A stretch of 64,000 bases of DNA from Thiotrichaceae bacterium. Its GTDB lineage: Bacteria; Pseudomonadota; Gammaproteobacteria; Thiotrichales; Thiotrichaceae. The stretch's first letter is position 1, and each line of letters begins with the position of its first letter. A program made the translations under genes and the position numbers. The notes under the pieces are model-generated. The model was not told where the DNA came from, did not search any database, and saw only the letters and a list, made by a program, of their open reading frames with translations. The stretch spans positions 1 to 64,000 of the forward strand of contig JALSJN010000075.1 in NCBI GenBank assembly GCA_026989335.1, read 5' to 3'. Below are positions 7,817-13,169 of this stretch, piece after piece.

Positions 7817-7863
7817 TATGGCGCGCTGGGGAGGATTCGAACCCCCGACCCCCTGGTTCGTAG
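7817..7863. repeat. attachment-site repeat (tRNA-Arg 3' half duplicate)
   Basis: TATGGCGCGCTGGGGAGGATTCGAACCCCCGACCCCCTGGTTCGTAG identical to 13091-13137. Confidence 0.93.
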
Positions 7864-8018: not shown

Positions 8019-9219
8019 ATGAAAACTAAAACTTTCAACCTCACAGCAAAAAGCATTAACGCCATGATCTTCGAAGATCGAGGCAATACAAAAGATATTC
8101 GATGGAGTAATAAAATAAAGGGCTTTGGTATTCGGCTCTATTCATCGGGAAATAAATCCTTTGTGCTTAGTTATCGTGTAAACAATCGCAAGCGGCTAAT
8201 GGTATTAGGTGACTTTGGGGTACTCACAGTCTCACAAGCCGAAGACAAAGCCAGAAAAGAGCTATCAAAAGTTATTGATAACATCGACCCAATGGAAGGG
8301 CGCGACATAAGGCGCAAGGCTGGCTCATTCGCACAATTAGCAGATGACTACTTAGAGCGATATGCAAAACCTAGAAAAAAGACATGGGAGCAAGATCAAG
8401 CCAGATTGAAAAAACACTTACTGCCAAAGTTTGGCACTTTGCCTGCTTTGAGTATCACCCATAACGATATTGCAAAGTTTCACAGCAAAATAGGAAAAAC
8501 CCGACCCTATGAAGCAAATAGACTCATTGAGTTACTAGCCGTCATGTTTAAAAAAGGGATTGTATGGGGCTTATTGCCTGATGACTTTAAAAACCCTGTT
8601 CTTAATATCGAAGCATTCAAAGAGCATAAGCGTGACCGCTGGGTAACACCCGAAGAACTACCGCGCCTTGCTGAATCCATAGATCAAGAACAATGCCCTT
8701 ATGTACGCGGTGCAATATGGCTTTACCTGCTAACAGGATTGAGAAAAAACGAGTTACTTTCTGCAAAGTGGGAATACATCGACTGGGATAGAAAAGAATT
8801 AAACCTACCCGATACCAAGTCAGGTAAGCCCTTGCACCTGCCATTAAGTAGCGAGGCAATAACTTTGCTGGAAGGCTTGCCACGACTGGAAAACAATCCT
8901 TACATTTTGGTTGGGATCAAAGAAGGTCAGCACCTAGTCAATATTAATAAACCGTGGGGACGTATTCGCGCACGCGCAAAGGTTGATGACGTAAGACTTC
9001 ATGATTTAAGACGTACAGTAGGCTCATGGCTGGCTCAATCGGGTAACAGCTTACACTTGTCGGTAAAGTTCTTAATCACAGCAACAGCGCAACTACAGAA
9101 GTTTATGCCAGATTCGCGCAAAATCATGTTAGAGACGCTTTAGAGTCACACGGCAAAAAGATCATGGGAATAGCTGGAAAACGTGACACCGCGCAAATAG
9201 TGAAGATTAACGAGGCATA
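8019..9219 (+). pseudogene. P4-type tyrosine integrase, frameshifted before the catalytic Tyr
   Basis: DUF4102-like N-terminus (GFGIRLYSSGNKSFVLSYRVNNRKRLMVLGDFG), core VRLHDLRRTVGSWLAQSG; the next frame continues LVGKVLNHSNSATTEVYARFAQNHVRDALESHGKKIMGIAGKRDTAQIVKINEA*. Confidence 0.88.
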
Positions 9220-9229
9220 GTAAATAGTT

Positions 9230-10225
9230 TTGCACTACCTACCGCGACGGTGGGAAAAGCTGGATACCTTTCAAGTCCAGTTTGGTAGTGCATTTTATTT
9301 TATTGAAAGGGAAGCATTGAAAGGATGCGATATGGGCTTTAACGTAGACGGAACTGATGAAGTGCGCGGATGGTGCTATTTAAAAAATATTACTATCGAT
9401 AGTTACACAAATTCTAAAGGTATTCATCGTTCCCCCTATGAGGGACAAGGCGTAAACGATAAATACAAACAACTATCAAAGCTTACAAGCCTTGAATGGT
9501 TTATGCCTGATGAACGCCTTAGTAAATACAAGGAAACAAGAGCTAAACAACAGAAAGCATTAGAAAACTACTTTGAAAAACAACTGCATAAAAAAGACCT
9601 TTTAAACAAAGCCCATTATGGCATTGCTGGAACGCCACAACTTAAACTACTACTAGACAAAAAGCGGAAAGAATTTGAGGTATTAGAAAAGTCGGGCTAC
9701 TTAAAAAATGTAAATCTTTACGCAAAGGCAATACCAGAAATAGGAAAACTAGCTGAACTAGTAAGAATAGAGGAGGAGAAAGAACGAAGCAGATCGCATG
9801 ACATTCATATCCCCCTACCTCTCCCAATTAACAAGAATAAAGCCGTAGAAGATAAGCTAGATGAACAAATACAGGAAACCAAAAAACTTAGAGAAGAATT
9901 AAAACAAACTAAAGAAAAGAGCCTAGTTAAAAACATTATTACAAGAGAGCCAAACGTAACACGCCCATCTACATTCATTCCCCCTGCATCACAGAATGAC
10001 GCGACAGAATTTGCGACTGAATGTGTTTATTGGTATGAAGAAGAACATAATCAGCTACCAACTCAAAAAGAGCTTTGGAGACTAATTAAAGCAATCGCTA
10101 CTGATGCCAATGTGGTTATTCAAGGTTATCGAGTGGAAATGAATGGAAGAAATACTGTAAAAATAGAAGAAAAAGAATGGACAAAAGAACAATGCAGGAA
10201 GTTTTTTAATTCGTATTTAAAATAA
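9230..10225 (+). CDS. hypothetical element-encoded protein, Lys/Glu-rich, coiled-coil-like centre
   Basis: 331-aa ORF; charged heptad-like region; true start may be the ATG at 9331. Confidence 0.55.
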   Translation: MHYLPRRWEKLDTFQVQFGSAFYFIEREALKGCDMGFNVDGTDEVRGWCYLKNITIDSYTNSKGIHRSPYEGQGVNDKYKQLSKLTSLEWFMPDERLSKYKETRAKQQKALENYFEKQLHKKDLLNKAHYGIAGTPQLKLLLDKKRKEFEVLEKSGYLKNVNLYAKAIPEIGKLAELVRIEEEKERSRSHDIHIPLPLPINKNKAVEDKLDEQIQETKKLREELKQTKEKSLVKNIITREPNVTRPSTFIPPASQNDATEFATECVYWYEEEHNQLPTQKELWRLIKAIATDANVVIQGYRVEMNGRNTVKIEEKEWTKEQCRKFFNSYLK

Positions 10226-10338: not shown

Positions 10339-10530
10339 ATGACTACTCAAACATTGCTAACACCAGGCGATACAGCTACTAAGCTAAAAGTCACAACACG
10401 CTTTCTATAGCACGACCGACTAAACAAGCGCACCATCCCATTCATCAAAATAAACCATTTAGTCCGTTATGATGAAAACGACCTAAACGCCTTTATTGAG
10501 AAATCAAAGATTGGTGGGGAGGTTGCTTAA
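10339..10530 (+). pseudogene. AlpA/excisionase-like HTH protein with in-frame TAG
   Basis: MTTQTLLTPGDTATKLKVTTRFL*HDRLNKRTIPFIKINHLVRYDENDLNAFIEKSKIGGEVA*; the IPFIK-x(4)-VRYDENDLNAFIE pattern is typical of HTH_17/AlpA excisionases. Confidence 0.7.
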
Positions 10531-10869
10531 ATGAAAGACACAAAAAAGACCACTCCCCGACAAGAGAACAGTCTCAAACGAGATAATATCATAGGTTCAA
10601 AACGGTTTAACCAGTTAAGCGAAGAAAAGCAAACAATAGTTATTCTTTACCATAAAGTGGAACTACCAAGAAAAGATATTGAGCCACTTATTCGCAATAA
10701 CTATTTTCCTAATCCAGCAAAAAGGTTAAGAGATATTCACGGCTTCGATATGAAATGGAAGCGATACGACTACATAAATGATCTAGGAAAACCAAAGTGG
10801 TATGGCATCTGGTATCTAACACCCGAAGATAAAAAGCGAGCGCGTGAGTTCGTTGGTGAGTTCATTTAA
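10531..10869 (+). CDS. hypothetical element-encoded protein
   Basis: 112-aa ORF starting immediately after the upstream stop codon. Confidence 0.5.
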   Translation: MKDTKKTTPRQENSLKRDNIIGSKRFNQLSEEKQTIVILYHKVELPRKDIEPLIRNNYFPNPAKRLRDIHGFDMKWKRYDYINDLGKPKWYGIWYLTPEDKKRAREFVGEFI

Positions 10870-11064: not shown

Positions 11065-11811
11065 ATGCGGTGCAGGGTGAAGCCTCGGAACTTAGGGGGC
11101 GGTCAAAATTCGCGGTTATTATTAATAGCCTCTAATCATTTAGATAAACCTTATTCCAAAACCAATAGGAAAAAGCCTATTAAAAAGAAGCTTAAACTTA
11201 ATCGAAAGTCTGAAAGTAAAAAAGGTTCTTTAAAATATCAAGGCATAACGTACAGGGTCAATACTGGAAGTGGTGAAGATAAGGGAATCTATTTAGTCAT
11301 GGTTAGAAAGATGATTGACCAATTAAATATCTGCCTTGATATGTGGGGAAGGATTTACGCGGTTAGATTAGACTTGCATCAAAAATACTACCGTGGAGAC
11401 AACAAGCTAATGAGTCGTTTTATCTGCAACTTTAAAAAGGCGATGCTCAAAGAATACGGTTTTAACAACTTTGGTTATCAGTGGGCGCGTGAACTAGAAA
11501 CATCGAAGGCTTGCCATTATCACTTAGTCATATTTTTTGATGGTTACAAAATAAAATCACATTGGAAAATAAGATAAATAGCCAAAGAAGTTTGGGAGAA
11601 AATAAAAGTCGGTAATACAGTCCCATACTGGAAGCCGAAGAAATACGGAAAAGTAGCGCATGACATACGAAAAAATGACCATGAATCGCTACTGGATGCG
11701 GTAGAACATTTCAGCTACTTAGCCAAAACCAGAGGCAAAGGATACCGCGACACACAAGCCAAAGACTACAGCACTAGTCGATTCACCAAGCCAGTGAGGT
11801 TATCAGCATGA
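11065..11811 (+). pseudogene. YagK/YfjJ (inovirus Gp2-like) replication-associated protein with in-frame TAA
   Basis: YAVRLDLHQKYY..., YQWARELETSKACHYHLVIFFDG; after the TAA at 11575 the same frame continues 77 codons to TGA at 11809 (IAKEVWEKIKVGNTVPYWKPKKYGK...RGYRDTQAKDYSTSRF-like). Confidence 0.75.
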
Positions 11812-11875: not shown

Positions 11876-12106
11876 ATGAGAGTGAAAGCATTAACTAATA
11901 TTGATCTATCTGGCAGTGAGAGCCTTGCAAGTAAAGAAGACATGCAACAAGCAATCAATAAAGCGTTTGTATGTGAGTATTTCAGGGTCAAGCCGAACAC
12001 TCCTGATGAGATACTCAAAGAAGCCATAAAACGTACTACAGGCTCAAATTTTAGCTTTGGGCAATTTAAGAGCAAGGTAGCATTTAGGAAAAGGGAAAAC
12101 CTATGA
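11876..12106 (+). CDS. hypothetical small element-encoded protein
   Basis: 76-aa ORF whose stop overlaps the next start (ATGA). Confidence 0.5.
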   Translation: MRVKALTNIDLSGSESLASKEDMQQAINKAFVCEYFRVKPNTPDEILKEAIKRTTGSNFSFGQFKSKVAFRKRENL

Positions 12107-12519
12107 GTAAATTAACAAACAAACAAAAGCGATTTATTGAAGAATATCTTATTGATCTTAATGCAACGAAAGCAAGTATTAGAGCTGGCTACAGTGAAGA
12201 TACAGCCCAGCAGATTGGCAGCGAGAACTTGTCAAAACTTGTTATTCAAAATGCAATACAGAAAGCTCAAAGAGAAAGCGCGCAACGTAATAGCGTTACA
12301 GTGGATGAAATAACAGAGATGCACAGAGAAGCTTACAGCGTGGCTAAGGAAGTTAAACAAGCCAGTGCAATGACAACTGCAGCACATAATCTTGCAAAGC
12401 TTCACGGATTGATAATTGATAGATCGAAGATAGAACAAGAAAAGCCAGAACCAATGACGTTTATTTTTGGATCAAGTGAACAAAAAGGCGATATTACAAT
12501 CACTAAAGGAAAAGGTTAA
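12103..12519 (+). CDS. terminase small subunit-like protein (copy 1)
   Basis: LTNKQKRFIEEYLIDLNATKASIRAGYSEDTAQQIGSENLSK is the signature N-terminus of Terminase_2-type TerS. Confidence 0.88.
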   Translation: MSKLTNKQKRFIEEYLIDLNATKASIRAGYSEDTAQQIGSENLSKLVIQNAIQKAQRESAQRNSVTVDEITEMHREAYSVAKEVKQASAMTTAAHNLAKLHGLIIDRSKIEQEKPEPMTFIFGSSEQKGDITITKGKG

Positions 12520-12521
12520 AC

Positions 12522-12911
12522 ATGAGTAAGCTAACAAACAAACAAAAGCGATTTATTGAAGAATATCTTATTGATCTTAATGCAACGAAAGCAAGTATTA
12601 GAGCTGGCTACAGTGAAAAAACAGCCTATTCAATAGGTAATGAGAACCTGAGCAAACCTGAAATACAAGAAGCGATACAGGAAGCACAAAAGGCATTAGC
12701 AGATAAAGCGGGTTTTAATCAGCAGCGCGCACGAGAAATGTATCTTGATGCTTTTGAGAAAGCTAAGGAGCAAGGGCAACCTAGCGCAATGAATCAAGCG
12801 ACTAGCGGACTATGTAAATTGTACGGGCTGAATGAACCTGATAAGAAAGATATTACTATGAATGGCGCGATGCCGATTACCCACATTGAAAGCGTGTATG
12901 TTGAACCTTGA
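12522..12911 (+). CDS. terminase small subunit-like protein (copy 2)
   Basis: same TerS N-terminus (94 of 96 nt identical to copy 1), divergent C-terminus. Confidence 0.88.
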   Translation: MSKLTNKQKRFIEEYLIDLNATKASIRAGYSEKTAYSIGNENLSKPEIQEAIQEAQKALADKAGFNQQRAREMYLDAFEKAKEQGQPSAMNQATSGLCKLYGLNEPDKKDITMNGAMPITHIESVYVEP

Positions 12912-12954
12912 ACGCAAGGATTACGCAAGGTTTACGCAAGGATAAATAAAATTA

Positions 12955-12983
12955 AGAGCCTCGTTAATATCGGGGCTTTTTTT
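12955..12983 (+). terminator. Rho-independent terminator after the TerS pair
   Basis: AGCCTCG-TTAATAT-CGGGGCT followed by T-run. Confidence 0.75.
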
Positions 12984-13025
12984 GTGCCTGAATGAAAAAT
13001 AAAATACTTAACAAATAGATTGTTG

Positions 13026-13090: not shown

Positions 13091-13137
13091 TATGGCGCGC
13101 TGGGGAGGATTCGAACCCCCGACCCCCTGGTTCGTAG
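13091..13137. repeat. attachment-site repeat within tRNA-Arg
   Basis: 47/47 identical to 7817-7863. Confidence 0.93.
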
Positions 13138-13169
13138 CCAGGTACTCTATCCAACTGAGCTACCAGCGC
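13093..13169 (-). tRNA. tRNA-Arg (anticodon ACG)
   Basis: GCGCTGG...CTACGAA anticodon loop...GGTTCGAATCC...CCAGCGCGCCA; encoded CCA. Confidence 0.95.

Follow-up and report, generated by a model that had tools for sequence, protein, structure and literature searches.

The window, a stretch of 64,000 nucleotides from a Thiotrichaceae genome, carries two paralogous terminase small-subunit genes, terS1 and terS2, lying side by side at the 3' end of a 5.27-kb element that is inserted in a tRNA-Arg gene and bounded by perfect 47-bp repeats (Table 1). We consider it fairly probable that the pair represents the two packaging selectors of a phage satellite, diverged from one another in the recognition helix and in the C-terminal tail. 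An earlier note on this DNA had proposed two tandem terS paralogs at 12103-12911, and this was confirmed: both ORFs are intact, both match PHROG 51 (terminase small subunit), and in the profile search terS1 scored 84.3 bits and terS2 scored 93.4 bits against Terminase_2 (PF03592), for which the curated cut-off is 26.1.

Table 1. Features of the tRNA-Arg element, in window positions
Feature	Positions	Strand	Remarks
attL, 47-bp copy of the 3' part of tRNA-Arg	7817..7863	.	Longest exact flank-to-flank repeat; identical to 13091-13137
Tyrosine integrase	8019..9143	+	Frameshifted near 9055-9062; PF00589 match ends at 148/172
297-aa ORF, function unknown	9332..10225	+	In the ORF list it starts at TTG 9230 (331 aa)
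HTH/AlpA-like regulator	10339..10530	+	Interrupted by TAG at 10408-10410; weak profile matches
112-aa ORF	10531..10869	+	Also present, conserved, in the tRNA-Ser element of this genome; lies within a 1588-bp block of 91.5% identity
Rep, replication initiator (YagK_YfjJ/inovirus Gp2-type)	11065..11811	+	In-frame TAA at 11575-11577; PF11726 E 8.8e-9
76-aa ORF	11876..12106	+	Overlaps the terS1 start by ATGA (from sequence)
terS1 (copy 1, 138 aa)	12103..12519	+	PF03592 E 1.6e-23; Foldseek top match 3zqq E 2.7e-5
Tract most likely converted, copy 1, codons 1-32	12103..12198	+	94/96 identical to 12522-12617
terS2 (copy 2, 129 aa)	12522..12911	+	PF03592 E 2.5e-26; Foldseek top match 3zqq E 5.4e-4
Tract most likely converted, copy 2, codons 1-32	12522..12617	+	Comparison with copy 1
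Intrinsic-terminator-like hairpin and T-run 3' of terS2	12948..12985	+	Near-invariant in G005, where the flank has otherwise diverged
attR, 47-bp repeat	13091..13137	.	Within the intact tRNA-Arg(ACG), 13093-13169 (-)

All genes of the element are on the plus strand, in the order integrase, 297-aa ORF, HTH/AlpA-like regulator, 112-aa ORF, Rep, 76-aa ORF, terS1 and terS2, and neither the ORFs nor the profile search revealed a terL, portal or capsid gene between the att sites. In most of the surveyed annotated phages that carry such a terS, terL comes immediately after it; Aeromonas phage Avpx2 is an exception within the stretch seen. The gene order integrase, HTH/AlpA-like regulator, Rep and terS was compared with the layout of Gram-negative PICIs (PMC6092414), and the resemblance suggests that the unit is a PICI-like phage satellite with the terS pair as its packaging module. 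As in the Gram-negative PICIs that bear terS, there are att repeats, an integrase, a tentatively AlpA-like regulator, a putative replication gene and terS, and no structural genes; the differences are the two paralogous terS genes, the Rep of inovirus Gp2/YagK type, the size of ~5.3 kb and the decayed state. The features by which PICIs are recognized include an integrase with att sequences at a specific site, here a frameshifted gene and the 47-bp repeats at tRNA-Arg; a satellite terS without a structural operon, here two terS genes as judged by gene content alone; an AlpA/Stl-type regulator, here an interrupted HTH gene with weak profile matches; and a replication module of primase/Rep and ori, for which the candidate here is a Rep of the YagK_YfjJ/inovirus Gp2 type that contains a stop. 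PICIs further rely on a helper phage for induction, transfer and interference. The element was also likened, by gene content, to the PICMIs, minimalist satellites of the Vibrionaceae (PMC10803314), which are likewise very small and without capsid-remodelling genes and have an integrase, AlpA and a replication gene. PICMIs are recognized by the absence of terS, integration at fis and the combination of alpA and prim, and PICMI115 has no terS homolog and is located at fis (PMC10803314), whereas the window element has the terS pair and a tRNA-Arg site and falls outside that group.

Derivation of the unit from an ordinary prophage, and not from a satellite, is very improbable. Although terS, integrase and Rep genes occur in prophages too, the perfect att repeats enclose the unit and leave no space for structural genes, and related integrase-regulator-Rep elements without recognizable structural genes are found near tRNA-Ser in the same genome and near tRNA-Leu and tRNA-Arg in G042 and G045.

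Two of the genes upstream of the pair are less readily assigned. When the stop in the HTH/AlpA-like gene was read as X, weak matches were obtained to PF12728 HTH_17 (E 4.7e-5, which does not reach the curated cut-off) and to phrog_66 excisionase/regulator (E 0.007); the AlpA identity of this regulator is tentative. The 297-aa ORF matched no family above the cut-off in the profile search; it has a C-terminal relative with 36% identity at a contig end in another genome (G008:C251; L021/L024), which probably belongs to another such element.

The element in the window is a decaying remnant, probably incapable of its own integration or of starting its own replication. The frameshift in the integrase lies upstream of the catalytic Tyr, and the end that holds this residue (VGKVLNHSNSATTEVYARF...) is out of frame, the remainder being readable in the +2 frame to ~9220; further stops are the TAG at 10408 in the AlpA-like gene and the TAA at 11575 in Rep. 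A sibling element located at tRNA-Ser in this genome (G000:C58, at ~5422-12331 of L042, locus G000:C58:12000-30000) shares 1588 bp at 91.5% identity with the window element, comprising the 112-aa ORF and Rep. Its Rep is 94% identical to the window Rep, contains no internal stop and might serve the window element in trans. The homology ends at window position 12092, just 5' of terS1, and the terS pair is absent from this sibling, which also differs from the window element in its intact integrase, in the identity of its integrase and regulators and in a resolvase at its 3' end. The 76-aa ORF is broken in the sibling, which is without terS, hinting that this ORF may be linked to the packaging module. 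In other Thiotrichaceae integrase-AlpA-Rep elements (L044 2885-3400, L045 7332-7850) a single TerS-like HTH protein is encoded directly after Rep; it belongs to another family (PHROG 1206, E 2.4e-6), is present in one copy, and is followed on its 3' side by a ~1080-aa restriction-modification-like cargo gene. Judged from these sequences, terS may be an exchangeable 3' module among such elements.

The same terS pair was found in an independent MAG (G005; JALSJU01) from another Thiotrichaceae species of the same genus, where it adjoins tRNA-Met and is followed by the same terminator. Misassembly or collapse of the pair was ruled out because this MAG also has it with both C-terminal parts conserved, and also because the U-R-c1-R-c2 path should have a single linear solution. 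Comparison of the window and G005 orthologs, at dS 0.57-0.63, gave an omega of 0.13 over 100 codons of terS1 and of 0.07 for terS2; purifying selection acts on both genes between the species. In a TerS tree built without the first 31 residues, so as to leave out the converted tract, the terS1 orthologs grouped at 99/96 and the terS2 orthologs at 98/95, with the two clades as sisters at a moderate 85/86. Since the orthologs cluster by copy and omega is low, the duplication predates the species split and both copies have been useful for long; terS duplicated, in all likelihood inside this satellite lineage, before the elements of the two species separated. Each daughter gene then acquired a recognition helix and a C-terminal tail of its own while purifying selection acted on it. 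A 53-bp match at G005:C94 was dropped, there being only unrelated chromosomal genes at that place.

A neutral history, in which a tandem duplication was partly homogenized by recombination while one copy is redundant and being lost, is rather unlikely. The decay of the window element would fit such a history, as would the state of terS1 in G005, the 5' end of which has been replaced by unrelated sequence at a contig end (L003 1-122); neither known pair-bearing element is intact, with three broken genes in the window and a truncated terS1 in G005. However, omega is well below 1 for both copies across a dS of ~0.6, and both terS1 and terS2 are open in the window despite three broken neighbours (integrase, AlpA-like gene and Rep). 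The sequence that replaces the 5' end of the G005 gene is transposase-like and has one copy only in that assembly, so that an IS insertion is no more than a candidate cause of the truncation.

Over their first 96 nt, the two window genes are identical at 94 positions; the differences, at nt 9 and nt 10, are both synonymous (AAA/AAG for Lys and TTA/CTA for Leu), and nt 11-96 form an identical run of 86 bp. Alignment thus bore out the two synonymous differences and the run length that the earlier note had described. The sharp divergence that it placed after this tract was seen at the DNA level, where identity falls abruptly at nt 97, but not for the proteins, which remain homologous to ~residue 105 (57% over 122 aa) and lack a sequence relationship in the last ~25-33 residues. 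Chance or protein constraint alone was ruled out as the source of the run: none of 20,000 codon-column shuffles reached that length, and over the same 96 nt the orthologs of the window and G005 differ at 13 sites (dS 0.92) as against 2 sites between the paralogs within the window (dS 0.12; binomial P 1e-4 under the ortholog rate, Fisher P 0.005). Since the paralogs are closer than the orthologs, which common descent and constraint leave unexplained, the sequences provide good support for the 5' tract having most likely been copied between the terS copies after the species split. The claim of a recent gene conversion of the N-terminal HTH was thus upheld as to conversion but not as to the HTH, because the tract ends before alpha-3. 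In this reconstruction, recombination between the tandem copies later overwrote the first ~96 nt in one lineage, and the identical first 32 residues would have arisen as a side effect of this event within a constrained region.

The identical 5' ends could instead represent the packaging start site of the satellite in duplicate, homogenized since both need recognition. In SPP1, pac overlaps the promoter, the RBS and the DBD-coding DNA of gene 1, i.e., terS (PMC6316719), and the tract in the window begins at the start codon with an RBS-like context that is also repeated (12086-12100 and 12507-12521). This explanation is nevertheless improbable: at silent sites the terS2 tract is among the least conserved parts between the window's genome (G000) and G005, with 10 synonymous changes at 18.8 sites (dS 0.92 versus 0.56 in the remainder), and a pac would need to co-diverge in each element. 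For the conversion, the sequence comparison mildly suggests, post hoc and not conclusively, that terS2 may have been the recipient in the window lineage. Nucleotides 88-149 of terS2 (12609-12670 in the window; L003 530-591) are identical between the species over 62 nt amid ~12% divergence (shuffle P 0.006); the stretch corresponds to the recognition helix region, and protein constraint, a cis element and recombination are candidate causes.

Models of TerS1 and TerS2 were built from an 11-sequence alignment and reached a pLDDT of >90 over residues ~11-50. Helices were predicted at residues 6-18, 21-27 and 35-44 (alpha-3 of the HTH), followed by a long helix from residue 46. Both models matched the DNA-binding domain of SF6 TerS (4zc3; rmsd 0.7, TM 0.93), and the best overall structural match of both was the SPP1-like TerS 3zqq. 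The two proteins share with TerS of the SPP1/SF6 type (gp1; 3ZQQ, 2CMP, 4ZC3) a four-helix N-terminal DNA-binding domain with an HTH and a predicted helical oligomerization core, both copies having PF03592 scores above the cut-off and, as modelled, the SF6 gp1 HTH fold; they differ from this type in the absence of terL downstream, in being tandem paralogs and in having different C-terminal tails.

According to the models, codons 1-32 extend from the N-terminal arm through alpha-1 and alpha-2 into the turn and stop short of alpha-3. Past the tract, the two proteins differ at D/K33, QQ/YS36-37 and S/N40 and also at 46-47. In SF6 TerS, DNA elicits a response in the N-terminal arm, in the turn between alpha-2 and alpha-3 and at the beginning of alpha-3, Lys48 is indispensable, and individual domains lack useful sequence specificity (PMC4737164); the equivalent of Lys48 is Lys45, common to TerS1 and TerS2. 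The proposal that a conserved HTH would direct both proteins to the same pac-like site found no support, since the tract stops at codon 32 and the copies differ in alpha-3. With different recognition helices a common pac does not follow from a common HTH, and on the modelled structures a differing DNA preference of TerS1 and TerS2 would be at least as likely as the same pac. The combined reading of the earlier note, in which both TerS proteins recognize one pac-like site but engage different TerLs, is accordingly not supported in that form.

The last ~30 residues of both proteins were modelled at low confidence (pLDDT ~45). For the C-terminal part of terS2, the nearest phage relatives came from Mannheimia phages and Vibrio breoganii phages, with 93% of the query covered, while that of terS1 gave short weak matches only, to Aaphi23 and a faecal phage. 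Such distinct nearest relatives may point, if weakly, to different partners.

It was also considered that the two proteins might act jointly, either by forming mixed TerS rings through a shared oligomerization core or with one copy interfering with the helper TerS in the manner of Rpp. The core motif AKE..Q.SAM..A..L.KL.GL is present in both copies and absent from the aligned phage TerS proteins, and there is a precedent in the PICIs of Escherichia coli, where Rpp-TerS heterocomplexes redirect packaging (PMC6739421). Both proteins, however, resemble in their models complete TerS and not truncated modulators, and we regard joint action as unlikely.

Tandem terS genes appear to be rare. No second terS place was found in any of the 286 phage records matching terS2 or the 230 matching terS1. 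In a sample of 369 genomes from the class, 22 had PF03592, with two genes in tandem only in the genome of the window and no such pair in the other 21 TerS-bearing genomes. Plasmids gave terS matches at 42 places in 39 records; the two inspected records with two places each (H84 and H90) were rejected as tandem cases, having no second terS within 3 kb. The peptide AYSIGNEN served as a search pattern, and its conservation among the database matches was therefore not counted as evidence. No report of tandem terS was found in searches of an open-access library of papers. With its two side-by-side paralogous terS genes, the element is an unusual variant of an otherwise known kind of satellite.

The idea that a resident prophage donates TerL or acts as the helper was rejected, none with a Terminase_6N or Terminase_3 TerL (PF03237, PF04466) being found in the host genome, a 95%-complete MAG, which also contains no other PF03592 gene. 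The data support a satellite together with the paralogy, age, selection, conversion and context of its terS pair, and from these we infer how packaging might proceed. Infection by a helper would lead to excision of the satellite and to its replication by the satellite Rep; each TerS would form a ring and bind satellite concatemers, and its C-terminal part would recruit the helper TerL, bringing satellite DNA into helper capsids. The differing alpha-3 helices and tails would probably provide two alternative packaging specificities, with different helper TerL proteins and/or pac sites, and dual-helper packaging by the two TerS proteins is plausible. It is doubtful that the satellite deliberately keeps two selectors, in which a 5' module present in both genes (the same N-terminal arm, a duplicated pac-like site, or both) would be combined with two recognition-helix/TerL-contact modules to reach two incompatible helper motors while recombination reshuffles specificity.

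The terS-bearing PICIs in the surveyed literature use either their own TerS or a modifier acting on that of the helper, and the pair described here bears on the question of how a satellite keeps pace with changing or multiple helpers. Conserved TerS paralogs with identical first 32 residues and different helices and tails amount to a natural domain-swap experiment, and the pair would allow the specificity for DNA to be separated from that for TerL.
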